A program made the translations under genes and the position numbers. 64,000 bases of DNA from an uncultured Gemmatimonadota bacterium (GTDB lineage: Bacteria > Gemmatimonadota > Gemmatimonadetes > Gemmatimonadales > Gemmatimonadaceae): contig CADEFN010000002.1 of assembly GCA_902826615.1 (NCBI GenBank), forward strand, positions 372,001 to 436,000. The letters are read 5' to 3'. Under the pieces are notes generated by a model, which saw nothing but the letters and a program-made list of their open reading frames with translations, was not told the origin of the DNA and did not search any database. Below are positions 25,384-44,252 of the stretch, piece after piece (position 1 is the stretch's first letter; each line of letters begins with the position of its first letter).

Positions 25384-25701
25384 ATGGCACACGACTCCGC
25401 ACACGCGAGCCATGAGCACGAACACCCAACGTGGAAGACGTACAAGTGGGTGGCGCTCTGGCTGACGCTGATCACGATCGTCGAAGTCTGGGCGTACTAC
25501 ATTCCGAGCTTTGTCGCATCGGCGGCCTTTGTGCCGTCCCTGCTCTTCATGTCGGCGGTCAAGTTTGTCATCGTGGTGATGTTCTACATGCACCTCAAGT
25601 ACGATCACAAGCTCTTCCGCGCCCTCTTCACCGGGCCGCTCATCATTGCCGTGGCCACGCTGCTGGCGCTGATGATGTTGTTCCGGAAGTTTGCAGACTG
25701 A
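25384..25701 (+). CDS. ctaF: Cytochrome c oxidase subunit IV
   Basis: 105 residues with three TM helices and the CyoD/COX4-pro motif FVIVVMFYMHLKYD. The N-terminus is His-rich (HDSAHASHEHEHP), like that of ctaE. It starts four bases after the ctaE stop and is the last oxidase gene; a palindromic repeat follows. Small structural subunit of the caa3 complex. Confidence 0.9.
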   Translation: MAHDSAHASHEHEHPTWKTYKWVALWLTLITIVEVWAYYIPSFVASAAFVPSLLFMSAVKFVIVVMFYMHLKYDHKLFRALFTGPLIIAVATLLALMMLFRKFAD

Positions 25702-25816
25702 GGAACAGAAGCACGGGAGGCACGGGAAGTACGAGAGGCACGGGAGCGAGTTCGCCTCTCGTGCCTCTCGTGCCTCTCGTACTTCCCGTGCCTCCCGTAC
25801 CTCCCGTCCCTCCCCC
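25693..25816. repeat. Palindromic 9-nt-unit repeat element, copy 1
   Basis: Tandem variants of the 9-mer (A/G)(A/G)GCACGGG run one way and their complements run back. The arms 25714-25746 and 25765-25797 pair over 33 bp with one mismatch around an 18-base loop. The element follows ctaF and forms most of the leader of ridA. Related copies lie at 30628-30745 and 44165-44252. Probable terminator or processing hairpin. Confidence 0.85.
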
Positions 25817-25830
25817 TAACCCTGCCCCTC

Positions 25831-26253
25831 ATGCGTCGACTCGCCCTGACCGCCTTCGCCCTGGTTGTTGCAGCTGCCCCCGTCGCTGCACAGAACCGCA
25901 AACCCGTAGGCACCAGTTCGCCCACCCTCACGCCCGCTATCATCGTCGGCAACACCGTGTACGGCTCGGGCCAGCTCGGAATGAGCCGCAACAACCCCGA
26001 CACCACCATCCAGGGTCAGACGAAGCAGGCCCTCGAGAACATCAAGGGCGTCTTCGAACAGGCCGGGACCACCATGGCGAATGTCGCCAAGTGCACCGTC
26101 TTCCTGACAGATGTGAAGGACTTCGGCGGCATGAACGAGGTCTATCGCACGTTCTTCCCCTCTGCGCCCCCGGCCCGATCCACGGTGGTGGTGGCCGCGC
26201 TCGTCGTACCTAACGCCAAGGTGGAGATCGAGTGCGTGGCAGTCATGCCCTGA
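25831..26253 (+). CDS. Exported RidA/YjgF family protein
   Basis: 140 residues. A clear signal peptide (about 1-21, LTAFALVVAAAPVAAQ) precedes a complete RidA/YER057c fold: VYGSGQLG, QTKQALENIKGVFEQAG, VTVFLTD-like CTVFLTDVKDF, and the conserved Arg in PPARSTVVVAAL. Cytosolic RidA hydrolyses reactive imines and enamines; this member should act outside the cytoplasm, so its substrate may differ. It starts at ATG 25831 with a pyrimidine-rich leader and no Shine-Dalgarno. Confidence 0.88.
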   Translation: MRRLALTAFALVVAAAPVAAQNRKPVGTSSPTLTPAIIVGNTVYGSGQLGMSRNNPDTTIQGQTKQALENIKGVFEQAGTTMANVAKCTVFLTDVKDFGGMNEVYRTFFPSAPPARSTVVVAALVVPNAKVEIECVAVMP

Positions 26254-26267
26254 CGTCACGAAGAAGC

Positions 26268-26305
26268 GAGAGGGGCATCAGGCTGTGAAGCCCGATACCC
26301 CTCTC
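26268..26305. terminator. Bidirectional terminator-like hairpin between convergent genes
   Basis: GAGAGGGG(C)ATC and GAT(A)CCCCTCTC pair across 26268-26305, with an inner GGCT/AGCC stem. It lies 15 bases after ridA and 17 bases before the stop of the minus-strand gene, so it can terminate both. Confidence 0.75.
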
Positions 26306-27649: not shown

Positions 27650-27994
27650 ATGCCCCGAAGCCCCAGCGAACTCCTGCACGGCACGCTTGACGTCCTGATC
27701 CTCAAGACGCTCGCGCTTGGCGCCTTGCACGGCTACGACATCTCCAGACGCATCGAATCGCGCTCACTCGATGCCTTTACGGTCGAGGACGCCGCGCTGT
27801 ACAAGGCCCTGCATCGGCTGGAGGACGCCGGCGCGATTGACGCCGAGTGGGGTGTGTCGGCCTCCAACCGGCGCGCCAAGTTCTATCGGCTCACCCCCGC
27901 CGGGCGCCGCGCCCTAGCCGCCGAGACCCAGACGTTCCGCGCCTACGCGGCCGCAGTACTCCGTGTGCTCGACACCCAGCCGGAGGACGCATGA
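27650..27994 (+). CDS. PadR family transcriptional repressor
   Basis: 114-residue winged-helix protein: LLHGTLDVLILKTL, HGYDISRRIE, EDAALYKALHRLEDAGAI, RAKFYRLTPAGRRAL. It overlaps the downstream permease ATG by ATGA. GAGGTG lies 6-11 bases before the ATG at 27650 and is a plausible Shine-Dalgarno that is also part of the operator, so repressor binding and translation share sequence. Confidence 0.93.
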   Translation: MPRSPSELLHGTLDVLILKTLALGALHGYDISRRIESRSLDAFTVEDAALYKALHRLEDAGAIDAEWGVSASNRRAKFYRLTPAGRRALAAETQTFRAYAAAVLRVLDTQPEDA

Positions 27995-30627
27995 GCCCAA
28001 AGCACCCACTGCAGGCCGGCTGGCGCCGCTGGCTGAGACTCCCTACCCGCTCTCCCGAGCTGGTGCAGCGGGACGTGGACGATGAGCTCGCCTTTCATCT
28101 GGCCATGCGCGAGGAGGAACTGCTGCGCTTGGGGTTCGATGCCGCCACGGCGAGCGCCGAGGCCCGACGCCGTTTTGGCGATGTGACGGACGCGCGCGCT
28201 TCCCTCCGCACCACTGACCTCCGCGCCGAACGCCGCTCCCGGGGTCGTCGGTGGTGGACCGATCTTCGCCACGACCTCGTCTATGCCGCGCGCCGGCTGC
28301 TACGTGAGCCGGGCTTCGCCCTTGTGGCCGTGCTCACACTGGCGTTAGGCATCGGTGCCACGGTGGCGATGACCAGTGTGTTGCGACGGCTCATTCTTGC
28401 TCCGCTGCCGTATGATGGCGCTGAGCGCCTGGTCTCCATGTCACTCAAGGCGAAGGACGGGTCGATCCGGGTGTCGGCAAACCCCGCCGTGCTCGAAGCC
28501 TGGCGAAACGGCATTCCTTCGCTTGAGCGCACCGAAGCCATCGCTTCCGAACGCCTGATCACGAAACGGGAGGGCCGGGGCGTGACCGTGAACGTGGGGT
28601 TCGTTGCCCCGGGACTTCTCTCGTATTTGAAGGTTGTCCCCGTAGCAGGACGTGGCTTTCTCGCCGAAGAGGTGCCGAAAGGAGCGGTGCCTGTCGCGAT
28701 GCTCGGCGAGAACAGCTGGGCACGCCACTACGGCCGTGATCCTGCGGTGATTGGTTCGGCCATCACACTCGGCGACCGGAGTTACACCATCGTCGGTGTG
28801 ATGCCCTCGCGGTTTGACCCCTCCATCTTCGGGCTGATGCCGCGGAGCGATGTGTGGCTGCCGCACCAGACAGACGACCCACGGAACTTCCTCACCGCCA
28901 TCGGGGTCATGCGCGATGGGGCCACACTCGAACAACTGGAGCGGGATCTTGCCGCCGCACTGGACCGCGCCTCTGGTGAGAAGTGGTGGGCAAGCCTGGT
29001 GCCTAACGTCAACCGACTCCTCGAGTCTGACGGTCAGAACACGCGCAGCACACTCTACCTCATGAGTGCCGCCGTGTTCCTGGTGCTTCTCATTGGCTGC
29101 ATCAATGTGGCCAACCTGCTGCTGGCGCGAGGCGCGGCCCGTGAGCGTGAGATGAGTGTCCGTGGCGCCATAGGCGCATCGCGAGGGCGGCTGCTGCGGC
29201 AGCTGCTTGCCGAGAGCTTCATGCTGGCCCTTCTTGGGGCGATGGCGGGTGCGGCATTGTCGCGCCTGATGCTGGCCGGCGTCATCAGATTTCGTCCGGT
29301 GAATTTCGCCGCCCTCGACGATGTGCGTATCGATGGCGCAGCACTCCTGGTGGCGCTAGGCACCGCCTTCGTCACCGCCATTGTCTTCGGGTTTGCTCCT
29401 GCCGTACTCGGCAGCGGAAACAAGGGGTCGCTCCTGCAGGGCGGCGCCCGCAATACAGGCACCGGACGCGCGGGTCAGCGGCTGCGGCGCACCCTGGTGT
29501 TCGCGGAGGTCGCGTGCTCCACCGCCCTGGTGGTAGCTGCTCTCCTCCTCGTGCGTTCTGCCCAGGCACTCGACCGCATGCGGCTCGGCTATGACGTGGC
29601 GCCCATCGTCACTATGCGGGTACAGCGAGTGATACCCGGCGACAGTACACCCATCGCCGCGCACCTTGACCCCGCGCTGGAGCGCCTGCGTGCACTCCCC
29701 GGAATCGAAGGGGTTTCGGCCGGCGACAACATTCCCGGAAGTTTTGGCGCCTGTCTCTGCGAGTTATTGGTTGAAGGGGCTACACCTCCGCCGGAGGCGG
29801 GTCGATCGACTGTGATCTTCGTTTCGGGAGACACGAGCTACCTGCGGACTGCAGGAACGCGGATCCTGGCGGGGCGGGGACCTGCGGCGGACAGCACCGA
29901 GGCGGCCGTGACTTCGGTGCTCGCGCGGCAACTCTGGCCCGGCGCCGACGCCATTGGCAAACGTTTCCGCATGAACCGCGAAGCGGCTCTGCGCAGTGTC
30001 GTAGGGATCTTCGAGGCGCAGGTAACGCCCGAGGGGTGGGTGCCCAATGACAGTGCTCAGGTCCTCACCGGAACTCCTGGCTATGCGGATGAGCCCACCG
30101 TCGTGATTCGGCTGCGACATGGCGCCTCGACCACCGCGCGTCAGCTCGCCGAGTTGGTGGAATCTGCGGCTCCCGCGTTGCAGGCCGTGGAAGCTCGCTC
30201 ACTCTCGGAGGTGGTGCGTGAGGCTCGCGCACCGCGCACCTTTACACGGGTGCTACTGGGCGCCTTTGCCGGTTGCGCCGTGTTGCTCGCCGCCCTCGGT
30301 CTGTACGGCGTGATGTCGTACGGCGTGACGCAACGGACACGAGAGATCGGTGTGCGTATGGCGTTAGGCGCGGGACGGGGCGCCATCGGACGGCTGATCG
30401 CAAAGGAGGGGCTGGTACTGACCATCGCCGGATTGATAGCCGGCGGCGCGGGATCCGTTGCATTGACCCGCATGCTCGGCGACAATCTCATCGGCGTGAG
30501 CCGATGGGATATGATGACCTATGCCGGCTCGGCCCTGACGATGCTGGCCGTGACGATCGTTGCCGTATGGGTACCAGTGCGCAGGGCAACCCGTGTCGAT
30601 CCCGTCACCGCAGTGGCAGCGGAGTAG
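27991..30627 (+). CDS. ADOP-type ABC transporter permease
   Basis: 878 residues with the ADOP N-terminal domain (RDVDDELAFHLAMREEEL, residues about 25-60), then two MacB-PCD/FtsX units (FALVAVLTLALGIGATVAM; LLIGCINVANLLLARGAARE; YGVTQRTREIGVRMALGAG) and the terminal RATRVDPVTAVAAE. ATG 27991 overlaps the padR stop, so it is chosen over upstream in-frame starts that lie inside padR. No ATPase partner nearby. The stop codon abuts a palindromic repeat. Confidence 0.9.
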   Translation: MSPKHPLQAGWRRWLRLPTRSPELVQRDVDDELAFHLAMREEELLRLGFDAATASAEARRRFGDVTDARASLRTTDLRAERRSRGRRWWTDLRHDLVYAARRLLREPGFALVAVLTLALGIGATVAMTSVLRRLILAPLPYDGAERLVSMSLKAKDGSIRVSANPAVLEAWRNGIPSLERTEAIASERLITKREGRGVTVNVGFVAPGLLSYLKVVPVAGRGFLAEEVPKGAVPVAMLGENSWARHYGRDPAVIGSAITLGDRSYTIVGVMPSRFDPSIFGLMPRSDVWLPHQTDDPRNFLTAIGVMRDGATLEQLERDLAAALDRASGEKWWASLVPNVNRLLESDGQNTRSTLYLMSAAVFLVLLIGCINVANLLLARGAAREREMSVRGAIGASRGRLLRQLLAESFMLALLGAMAGAALSRLMLAGVIRFRPVNFAALDDVRIDGAALLVALGTAFVTAIVFGFAPAVLGSGNKGSLLQGGARNTGTGRAGQRLRRTLVFAEVACSTALVVAALLLVRSAQALDRMRLGYDVAPIVTMRVQRVIPGDSTPIAAHLDPALERLRALPGIEGVSAGDNIPGSFGACLCELLVEGATPPPEAGRSTVIFVSGDTSYLRTAGTRILAGRGPAADSTEAAVTSVLARQLWPGADAIGKRFRMNREAALRSVVGIFEAQVTPEGWVPNDSAQVLTGTPGYADEPTVVIRLRHGASTTARQLAELVESAAPALQAVEARSLSEVVREARAPRTFTRVLLGAFAGCAVLLAALGLYGVMSYGVTQRTREIGVRMALGAGRGAIGRLIAKEGLVLTIAGLIAGGAGSVALTRMLGDNLIGVSRWDMMTYAGSALTMLAVTIVAVWVPVRRATRVDPVTAVAAE

Positions 30628-30745
30628 CGGAGGCACGGGAAGCACGGGAAGCACGGGAGGCACGGGAGGCACGGCAAGCATCGTAGCCACGGGAGGCACG
30701 CGTGCTTCTCGTGCCTCTCGTGCTTCCCGTGCCTCTGCCCCTAAG
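30628..30745. repeat. Palindromic 9-nt-unit repeat element, copy 2
   Basis: Six or so tandem (A/G)(A/G)GCACGGG units, a short degenerate centre, then complementary units ending TCTGCCCCTAA. The longest perfect pairing I can place is 17 bp (30630-30646 with 30719-30735). It begins right at the permease stop, and its right end CCCCTAA contains the TAG stop (30741-30743) of the convergent minus-strand gene. Likely a bidirectional terminator. Confidence 0.85.
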
Positions 30746-31229
30746 TCCTCCCTGCGAGCGCCTCATTGAGCCCGTGCAACGCTTGCGGGTGGGCCCGGAA
30801 GAGAGAACGGCCCATGACTACGGCAGCGAGGAGATTGGCCGCACCGATCTGATACCAGGCAATCGGCACCGCCTGGCCTCGCAGCGACATCGTGTACACG
30901 TAGAGGTGGAAACCGAGTTCGAACGCCACAAAGAGAAAAAACAGCCCGATCAGGTGCGACGGCTCGTTATCGGCGGCGTTGACCACCCACGCCACGACGA
31001 TGCCAAGACCCACGAACAAGATCACGTGCCACACGGTGTACACCATCACATAGGCCGCAGGACTGACGCGATCGAGCCCGATGACCGCCATCAGGGACTC
31101 CCCGAGTATCCTCGGTGTAAAGAGCGGTTGTCCCCCCACCACGTCGACGAGGAGAAACCAGAGGGCCACCGATACCGCGCCTAACAAGCCGGCCCGGATG
31201 CCTTCGTGCAGGGTCCGATTGCGTTCCAT
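30741..31229 (-). CDS. Four-helix membrane protein of unknown function
   Basis: 162 residues with about four TM helices: LLGAVSVALWFLLVDVV, VMVYTVWHVILFVGLGIVVAWVV, LIGLFFLFVAFELGFHLYVY and a C-terminal helix through IGAANLLAAVVMG. Conserved-looking His/Glu residues lie inside helices (VWHVILF, FELGFHLY). The N-terminus is short and basic (MERNRTLHEGIRAG). I do not recognise the family. Its TAG stop lies in the end of the palindromic repeat. Confidence 0.7.
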   Translation of the reverse strand: MERNRTLHEGIRAGLLGAVSVALWFLLVDVVGGQPLFTPRILGESLMAVIGLDRVSPAAYVMVYTVWHVILFVGLGIVVAWVVNAADNEPSHLIGLFFLFVAFELGFHLYVYTMSLRGQAVPIAWYQIGAANLLAAVVMGRSLFRAHPQALHGLNEALAGRT

Positions 31230-42749: not shown

Positions 42750-42761
42750 ACCGTGACGACA

Positions 42762-44168
42762 ATGACTCACATGACCATCAAGACGCGATTCACGCGTGAG
42801 ATGCGCCGGGCCAGCGTCGCGGGCCTTGCCATCCTGGCACTAGGGGCTTGCAGCGAACTTCGCGAAGATCTCCTGGCAGCTGACGATCCAGATGTGATTT
42901 CACCGGACGCGGTGAAGTCAGCCGCCGGCGCCGAGGCGCAGCGCACGGGAGCACTGAGCCGGTTGCGCGACATCGGACCTGGAGGGGGTGGCAGCAATGG
43001 CACCGTCTGGACACAGGCAGGCCTGCTCGTGGACGAATGGAAATCGAGCAACACCTTCTCGCAGCACAACGACACGGACGAGCGCAAAAACCAGGACAAC
43101 AACAGCGTTGCCTTGGCCATGCTGCGGTCGCTCTACCGCGCCCGCACGTCGTCGTACGAGGCGATCAACGGACTCCGGGAGTTCAAGCCGACGCCCGCCT
43201 CGAGCGTTGGGCAGATGTACCTGATCCTTGCCTACGCAGAGATGTCTCTCGCAGAAAACTTCTGCAACGGCATTCCGCTGGGTGATGCGTCTACTGGCGT
43301 GATCCTGTACGGACCGCCACTCAGCAACGTCGCCGTCTACAACGTGGCGCTGGCGCACGCGGACAGCGGCCTGGCGCTGTCCTCGGCGGCGGATGCCGCA
43401 ACCGTCGCCATTCGGAATGCGCTGCTCATCAACAAGGCACGGATCCTGGTCAACCTGGGACGGTTCTCGGACGTTAACGCCGTGGTATCAGGCGTTCCCA
43501 CGAACTACCGATTCAACGCGACATTCGCAGTGACGTCGGGCGACAACGCTCTCTGGAGCATCAACACCAGCCAGAAGCGTTTCGTGGTGGGGGACTCCGT
43601 CGATCCGGCAGGACGCATTCTGAACGCGATTCCGTTCGTTTCCTCACGAGACCCACGAATTCCCACGGTTGGGACGTCAACCGGCACCTCACCAGCGGGC
43701 CGTGGCTTTGACAACCAGACCAACTTCGTGCAGCAGAACTTGTTCGGGCGCTCCGACCCGATGCCGTATCTCTCCGGGGTGGATGCCCGCCTGTACGAGG
43801 CCGAAGTGCTGCTGCGCGCGGACAACTACACGGGGATGATGACGATCCTCAACGCCCTGCGCGCCGCACCCCAGAACCTCGGGGCCATCACCACGCCCGC
43901 CATGGCCGCACTCCCCGTGCCGACCACCAAGGACGCGGCGATCGATCTCTACTTCCGCGAGAAAGCCTTCTGGACATTCTCACGCGGTATGCGCCTCCCC
44001 GACCTGCGCCGCCTGATGCGGCAGTATGGTCGCACCGAAGCGCAGGTGTTCCCGCGCGGAACGTTCTTCAAGACCAACCAGCCCTACGGCACCGACGTCA
44101 ACTTCCCGATCTTCCGCGAGGAGTTGACCAATCCGGAGTTCACCGGCTGCACGGACCGGAACGCTTAG
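42762..44168 (+). CDS. SusD/RagB-type outer-surface lipoprotein
   Basis: 468 residues. A signal peptide with lipobox LALGAC (Cys near residue 32) precedes the helical SusD fold. TPR-like helices include NGLREFKPT and MYLILAYAEMSLAENFCNG, and the conserved C-terminal block is GVDARLYEAEVLL, YFREKAFWTFSRG, RLPDLRRLMRQYGR and GTDVNFPI. It caps the SusC barrel and captures ligand. ATG 42762 is preferred over a GTG nine bases upstream. The stop TAG (44166-44168) lies in the left end of a palindromic repeat, so the last residues may have been altered by it. Confidence 0.93.
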   Translation: MTHMTIKTRFTREMRRASVAGLAILALGACSELREDLLAADDPDVISPDAVKSAAGAEAQRTGALSRLRDIGPGGGGSNGTVWTQAGLLVDEWKSSNTFSQHNDTDERKNQDNNSVALAMLRSLYRARTSSYEAINGLREFKPTPASSVGQMYLILAYAEMSLAENFCNGIPLGDASTGVILYGPPLSNVAVYNVALAHADSGLALSSAADAATVAIRNALLINKARILVNLGRFSDVNAVVSGVPTNYRFNATFAVTSGDNALWSINTSQKRFVVGDSVDPAGRILNAIPFVSSRDPRIPTVGTSTGTSPAGRGFDNQTNFVQQNLFGRSDPMPYLSGVDARLYEAEVLLRADNYTGMMTILNALRAAPQNLGAITTPAMAALPVPTTKDAAIDLYFREKAFWTFSRGMRLPDLRRLMRQYGRTEAQVFPRGTFFKTNQPYGTDVNFPIFREELTNPEFTGCTDRNA

Positions 44169-44252
44169 GGGCAGAAGCACGGGAGGCACGGGAAGCACGA
44201 GGGACCTCCTACCGTGCTTCTCGTGCCTCTCGTGCTTCCCGTGCCTCTGCTG
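44165..44252. repeat. Palindromic 9-nt-unit repeat element, copy 3
   Basis: It starts TTAGGGGCAGA and runs as AAGCACGGG/AGGCACGGG units, a loop, then complementary units. A perfect 19-bp stem joins 44183-44201 and 44229-44247. Convergent susD and sigma-factor genes both end inside it: TAG of susD in its left end and the sigma TAG (44211-44209) in its loop. Probable bidirectional terminator. Confidence 0.87.

Follow-up and report, generated by a model that had tools for sequence, protein, structure and literature searches.

A lineage-specific family of four-unit tandem repeats behind stop codons in a Gemmatimonadaceae genome

The GGGAATC / GGGGA(C/T)T heptamer arrays of Xanthomonas/Nostoc are dispersed through the genome with a preference for four units, and their G-rich strand lies either in sense, near or overlapping a stop codon, or in antisense, close to the start that follows (Rehm et al. 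2015; PMC4692102). They also form inward-facing pairs, of which each Xanthomonas genome holds 70-75; their host genes show no functional bias, no role was assigned to them by the authors, and the preference for four units was linked by the same authors to G-quadruplex formation (PMC4692102). In the Beggiatoaceae, TAACTGA repeats are positioned a few nt upstream of start codons in 2-6 copies, pairs being the commonest, and one inverted case is on record (PMC4679880).

We report here that a repeat in the DNA of an uncultured bacterium of the Gemmatimonadaceae is one copy of a lineage-specific, dispersed family of 3'-UTR tandem repeats, and that the stop-proximal heptamer arrays of Xanthomonas/Nostoc are the closest described kind (PMC4692102). 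Both are dispersed four-unit tandem arrays that lie in sense near a stop or in antisense near a start, form inward pairs and are without bias in gene function. The family differs from the heptamers in its 9-nt unit (theirs is of 7 nt), in the phylum that carries it, in two freely variable purine positions and in a conserved edge that contains the stop codon; the four GGG tracts needed for the three-tetrad G-quadruplex that was proposed for the heptamers were found in only 13 of 89 arms. The TAACTGA repeats resemble it as lineage-specific short tandem repeats at gene boundaries, including those beside housekeeping genes, and can be regarded as its start-codon counterpart, whereas the arrays described here are stop-proximal, of four units and paired inwards. 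REP/BIME elements are likewise dispersed extragenic palindromes near gene ends with possible 3'-end hairpins, but each is one short palindrome, in contrast to the tandem four-unit, mutually independent arms found here without a RAYT gene. The uptake sequences of Neisseria and the Pasteurellaceae consist of a short word that occurs as inverted pairs at gene ends, in terminators. They differ from our arrays, which are tandem sets of four, and since the unit on its own is not in excess elsewhere (9 copies observed in 200 kb, with 10.6 expected), the repeat is not a DNA uptake sequence. No Rfam match was obtained at the gathering threshold within the window (the whole stretch of DNA that was analysed, 64,000 nucleotides), and plasmid searches gave nothing relevant.

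Copies in the window and the genome-wide family

A first-pass annotation had described three copies of a palindrome built of 9-nt units in the window. All three are present, with arrays at 25707-25813, 30629-30736 and 44173-44248. Each consists of two facing arrays, which we call arms, and their parts are given below together with the stop codons that precede them.

25699-25701, plus strand: TGA stop of the cytochrome oxidase subunit IV gene (25384-25698; COX4_pro Pfam match)
25707-25742, plus strand: sense arm of copy 1, four RGARGCACG units
25743-25759, no strand: loop separating the arms of copy 1, included in the folding
25760-25813, minus strand: partner arm of copy 1, six units, antisense to the RidA-like gene (ATG at 25832)
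30625-30627, plus strand: TAG stop of the MacB/FtsX-type permease gene (27847-30624)
30629-30673, plus strand: sense arm of copy 2, five units, with degenerate units onward to 30700
30701-30736, minus strand: facing arm of copy 2, four units
44166-44168, plus strand: TAG stop of a 471-aa gene (42753-44165), within the edge cTTAGGGGC
44173-44199, plus strand: sense arm of copy 3, three clean units and a degenerate fourth
44213-44248, minus strand: facing arm of copy 3, four units, its reading frame taken directly from the sequence

Folded as single-stranded RNA, copies 1, 2 and 3 gave energies of -86, -86 and -64 kcal/mol, with z-scores of -12.2, -9.7 and -10.2 against dinucleotide shuffles, none of which (0/200) folded equally well. 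The 9-nt register was as annotated, but the unit, given as (A/G)(A/G)GCACGGG, is more naturally written RGARGCACG, its two purines being freely variable. The palindromic symmetry was also confirmed, though not as a single perfect palindrome: the two arms hold unequal numbers of units (4/6, 5/4 and 3/4), and the stem is therefore a register match between two arrays. The shared ends TTAGGGGCAGA...TCTGCCCCTAA attributed to the copies were found together in none of the three, copy 2 having the right end only, copy 3 the left end only, and copy 1 a variant of each.

The first unit of copy 1 lies 5 nt past the TGA of the cytochrome oxidase subunit IV gene. The facing arm of copy 2 is flush with the stop (complement 30741-30743) of a convergent minus-strand gene (30744-31229), and the stop of the 471-aa gene at copy 3 has an identical position in two relatives, G002 and G003. 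The facing arm of copy 3 is translated as the C-terminal tail (EAR)4 of a convergent minus-strand gene, whose stop is at complement 44209-44211. An array was also observed to be translated at L044:2750-2790 on the plus strand, where the protein ends in (EAR)4 and a stop codon follows. Although the (EAR)n frame serves in these two C-termini, a coding origin of the repeat was rejected, since the spacing to the stop uses all three frames. A 17-bp hairpin of ordinary terminator-like form was noted at 26268-26305, 3' of the RidA-like gene, and contrasts with the repeat hairpins.

A two-unit pattern allowing up to 2 mismatches matched the 5.9 Mb genome 295 times (155+140), against 7 matches for the reversed control, and the repeat family is therefore not a product of chance; the supposition that only the three window copies exist genome-wide is false. 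A stricter 24-mer has 139 exact matches in the genome, of which 124 fall in the stretches examined, the window included; these stretches yielded 95 arms, which puts the genome total at roughly 105. The repeated object is one arm, not the palindrome. A typical arm spans 36 nt and consists of four RGARGCACG units oriented in the sense of the gene. With unit numbers counted at a two-unit threshold, exactly four were present in 56 of the 95 arms (two in 5, three in 4, five in 15, six in 9 and at least seven in 6), where a geometric law of equal mean would expect only 15% at four; four units were likewise found in 26 of the 43 arms that lack the pattern used for locus selection. Beyond the fourth unit the sequences of the arms are unrelated to each other. 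As the loci were picked by pattern, and gene calls were made by a simple ORF/GC3 rule and not by a trained gene finder, these counts, all from one genome, are accurate to a few arms and not exact.

Positions 1 and 4 of the unit are freely A or G and the remaining seven are 90-99.5% fixed to one base; 30% of the RGARGCACG units read GAG. The purine states were observed to be nearly independent across units and arms (identical four-unit haplotypes in 23 pairs against 17.3 expected, p=0.1), although at one of the purines neighbouring units agreed weakly at lag 1 (p=0.002).

Position at stop codons and distribution in the phylum

About a hundred genes have such a repeat just behind their stop codon. 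Following a suggestion of the first-pass annotation, array positions were mapped against gene 3' ends, and of 89 arms read in sense orientation 57 were observed to begin 0-12 nt past the stop of an ORF whose GC3 is of coding type, against 4 of 89 for a control with the opposite edge on the opposite strand; this places the purine-rich sense strand within 50 nt of the stop, as in the heptamer class. Most often the layout is TAG-GGGC-RGARGCACG, and 26 arms have their unit at +4. The outer edge lies across the stop codon or after it, typically as cTTAGGGGC-RGARGCACG x4, and in the edge variant CTGAGGAGCRGA a TGA is supplied in another frame. A T precedes the stop in 20 of 57 array genes and in 9 of 157 others (p=3e-7), the stop itself is TAG in 33 of 57 and in 49 of 157 respectively, and GGGG after the stop is not typical of other genes. 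The edge CTTAGGGGCRGA was also found at some array edges that have no gene stop. Judged by the T and TAG counts, the edge appears to have been copied together with the arm, and this common outer edge does show a relatedness of the copies through some copying process. The array-free G002 provided 19 orthologues, of which 13 have an unchanged protein end and 4 others an end shifted by no more than one residue; thus the arrays were added behind existing stops.

A search of the genome and its relatives, also suggested by that annotation, identified as carriers of the family this genome (G000) and, with a related set, G003 (Gemmatimonadaceae bacterium ES-bin-29, a same-genus MAG). The closest relatives are ~70-80% identical in DNA, and exact matches numbered 0 in G001, 0 in G002 and 1 in G004. 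Among 395 genomes sampled from the phylum, a draw that did not include G003, only three others had matches, 1-2 each, and the match in G030 looks coding. A second palindrome in 9-nt register was observed in G003 (L091, L100, L102, L195, L208 and L224), with the fixed unit order GAATTACG GGAATCACG GGCAGTACG ... and, at L091 and L100, the common loop GCGATCGCG; these have the appearance of genuine copies of a single element.

Arrays of the heptamer AGACGGC, several of them stop-flush, occur in G000, G001, G004 and G016, a repeat for which the reversed-pattern control is invalid because it is near-identical in a shifted register. In G016, which belongs to another genus of the same taxonomic family, tandem arrays of 7-14 nt units were found at 10 of 141 gene ends (0 in the shuffled control), and seven of the ten begin 0-8 nt past the stop. 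G057 has four 8-nt units flush with a TAG. Since stop-flush arrays occur in several lineages, they are a recurrent habit of the group, with a unit that differs by lineage.

Individual loci of these kinds may be recorded here. AGACGGC arrays are stop-flush at L062:399, at L074:4913 and at the G001/G004 loci L171-L189, and at L184 the edge TAGGGGC is identical to that of the 9-mer family. The units of G016 (L281-L288) are GAGARACAACA 11-mers (4-6 units), AGACGGC 7-mers and TAGATGG 7-mers that contain the stop, with examples at L281:16027, L284:12962 and L287:12588. At L167 and L306:10487 of G057, stop-flush 7/8-nt arrays stand beside a central palindrome common to both loci, ACACCAGCCTAGGCTGGTGT, beyond which the arrays are inverted.

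Pairing, hairpins and competing explanations

Arms that neighbour each other within 260 nt were observed to face inward in 32 cases and outward in 0, and in 30 of the 32 pairs at least one arm is stop-flush. Paired arms facing each other across an intergenic gap can give a 33-38 bp hairpin in the transcript, just past the stop. Of 33 pairs, 15 are located between convergent genes, compared with 16 of 136 baseline gene pairs (p=4e-5), and single arms showed no significant bias toward convergent genes; in some same-direction pairs (L074, L082) the more distant arm adjoins the start codon that follows. Two arms from the same element show no greater likeness or pairability than do arms shuffled between elements, so pairing is a matter of orientation and position and not of arm-to-arm copying or compensatory change. 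Both inverted duplication and compensatory maintenance of the arms were rejected on this ground, as arm identity within elements equals that of the shuffled set.

We tentatively favour, at somewhat less than an even chance, a reading in which the paired modules are a 3'-UTR repeat that forms U-less 3'-end hairpins, its form kept by selection or conversion and its spread ectopic. The paired modules would act as hairpins in both directions, and these may shield the transcript end from exonucleases and/or block read-through between adjacent genes, which are often convergent. Purifying selection or ongoing conversion would keep the four-unit form fixed, and spread would occur by ectopic copying that carries the edge and stop codon along, with no need of a dedicated REP/MITE transposase. 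We infer such functions from sequence. The stop-flush position, the four-unit peak, the inward pairs, the convergent enrichment, the folding, the fixed unit positions, the shared edge and the GC hairpins that relatives have in place of copies 1 and 3 all argue for this reading; against it stand arms that do not co-vary, the existence of single arms, and the lack of a U-tract and of hairpin enrichment at empty sites.

The first-pass suggestion of selection as an RNA hairpin thus holds for the paired copies (inward 32:0, convergent enrichment, strong folding) and not for the single arms. One of these, an array of 7 units, separates rpsN (S14) from rpsH (S8) within the L5-S14-S8-L6 operon, and because it sits inside this ribosomal operon, an array cannot by itself be a strong terminator. 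Another single arm, at L058, has a separate strong hairpin after it. At copies 1 and 3, relatives without the array carry unrelated GC hairpins at the site. Over the 19 G002 orthologues, hairpins at empty sites were not significantly enriched (pairs 2/13 against a background of 7.6%), and the idea that the elements replaced terminators, seen at those two copies, was rejected.

The hairpin reading leaves the four units of single arms unexplained, and the main rival, a four-site binding module, accounts for single arms better. Here the four-unit array would be a multivalent RNA/DNA recognition module, the hairpins between facing modules would be secondary, and the reader would be a repeat-binding protein or an antisense RNA in which U faces both purines, as A-U or G-U pairs. 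Single arms are likewise four-unit and stop-flush, variation is limited to A/G at two positions, a lone array is found in the ribosomal operon, and unit states are nearly independent between arms, so that only a degenerate motif is kept. However, no binding factor or antisense RNA was identified, and such a module alone would not predict the inward pairs or the excess of convergent genes; we regard it as unlikely but a serious contender.

It is also unlikely that the arrays are neutral or selfish short tandem repeats, seeded at gene ends, grown by slippage and tolerated only outside coding sequence, with R-loops just after the departure of the ribosome perhaps aiding slippage. The lineage-specific units, the long arrays of 13-14 units in G003 and the weak lag-1 agreement of adjacent units are consistent with such growth, but the sharp four-unit peak, well above the geometric expectation, the strict 32:0 orientation, the conserved non-repeat edge and the near invariance of 7 of the 9 unit positions are not. 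Telomere-like end addition, with its independent arms and its G-rich strand toward the gap, was considered as well; the conserved edge argues against it.

We consider it very improbable that the family is a miniature element of MITE or REP-like type mobilised by a transposase, a mode of spread that the first-pass annotation had put forward and that our results mostly fail to support. Copies are numerous in one lineage and have the edge CTTAGGGGCRGA in common, in some cases away from any stop, but the Y1/RAYT transposase (PF01797) was found in 0 of 6 genomes (this genome and five relatives), the control search being positive in 5 of 14 named genomes. Among 34 pairs no direct flanking repeat of lengths 2-9 exceeded the shuffled level, and the outer flanks were no more similar within than between elements. 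As there is no target-site duplication, shared terminal repeat or REP transposase, MITE/REP spread is not supported; the loops are also unrelated, the arms independent and single arms many.

Ordinary intrinsic transcription terminators sharing sequence by chance are hardly credible, for although gene-end hairpins enriched between convergent genes and the ordinary GC hairpins of relatives at copies 1 and 3 would agree with them, the GC-rich hairpin is limited to paired copies (-64 to -86 kcal/mol), the stem is followed by no U-tract (the sequence reads ...GCCCCTAA), 0 of the 3 window copies were called by a terminator scan, single arms sit in an operon, and at L058 a separate hairpin comes after the array.

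What the four-unit form may mean

Position, orientation, number and pairing recur in a 9-mer that is mostly incapable of forming quadruplexes, and it is therefore unlikely that the G-quadruplex accounts in general for the number four. It is a speculative and rather doubtful extension that stop-flush four-unit arrays may be a general, convergently evolved bacterial 3'-UTR signal, set by a four-site RNA/DNA reader and not by a G-quadruplex. Such a signal would cover the 9-mers described here, the heptamers of Xanthomonas/Nostoc and the 7-14-mers of related Gemmatimonadota. A lineage with about 100 near-identical modules, both paired and single, makes the question of the four units experimentally tractable.
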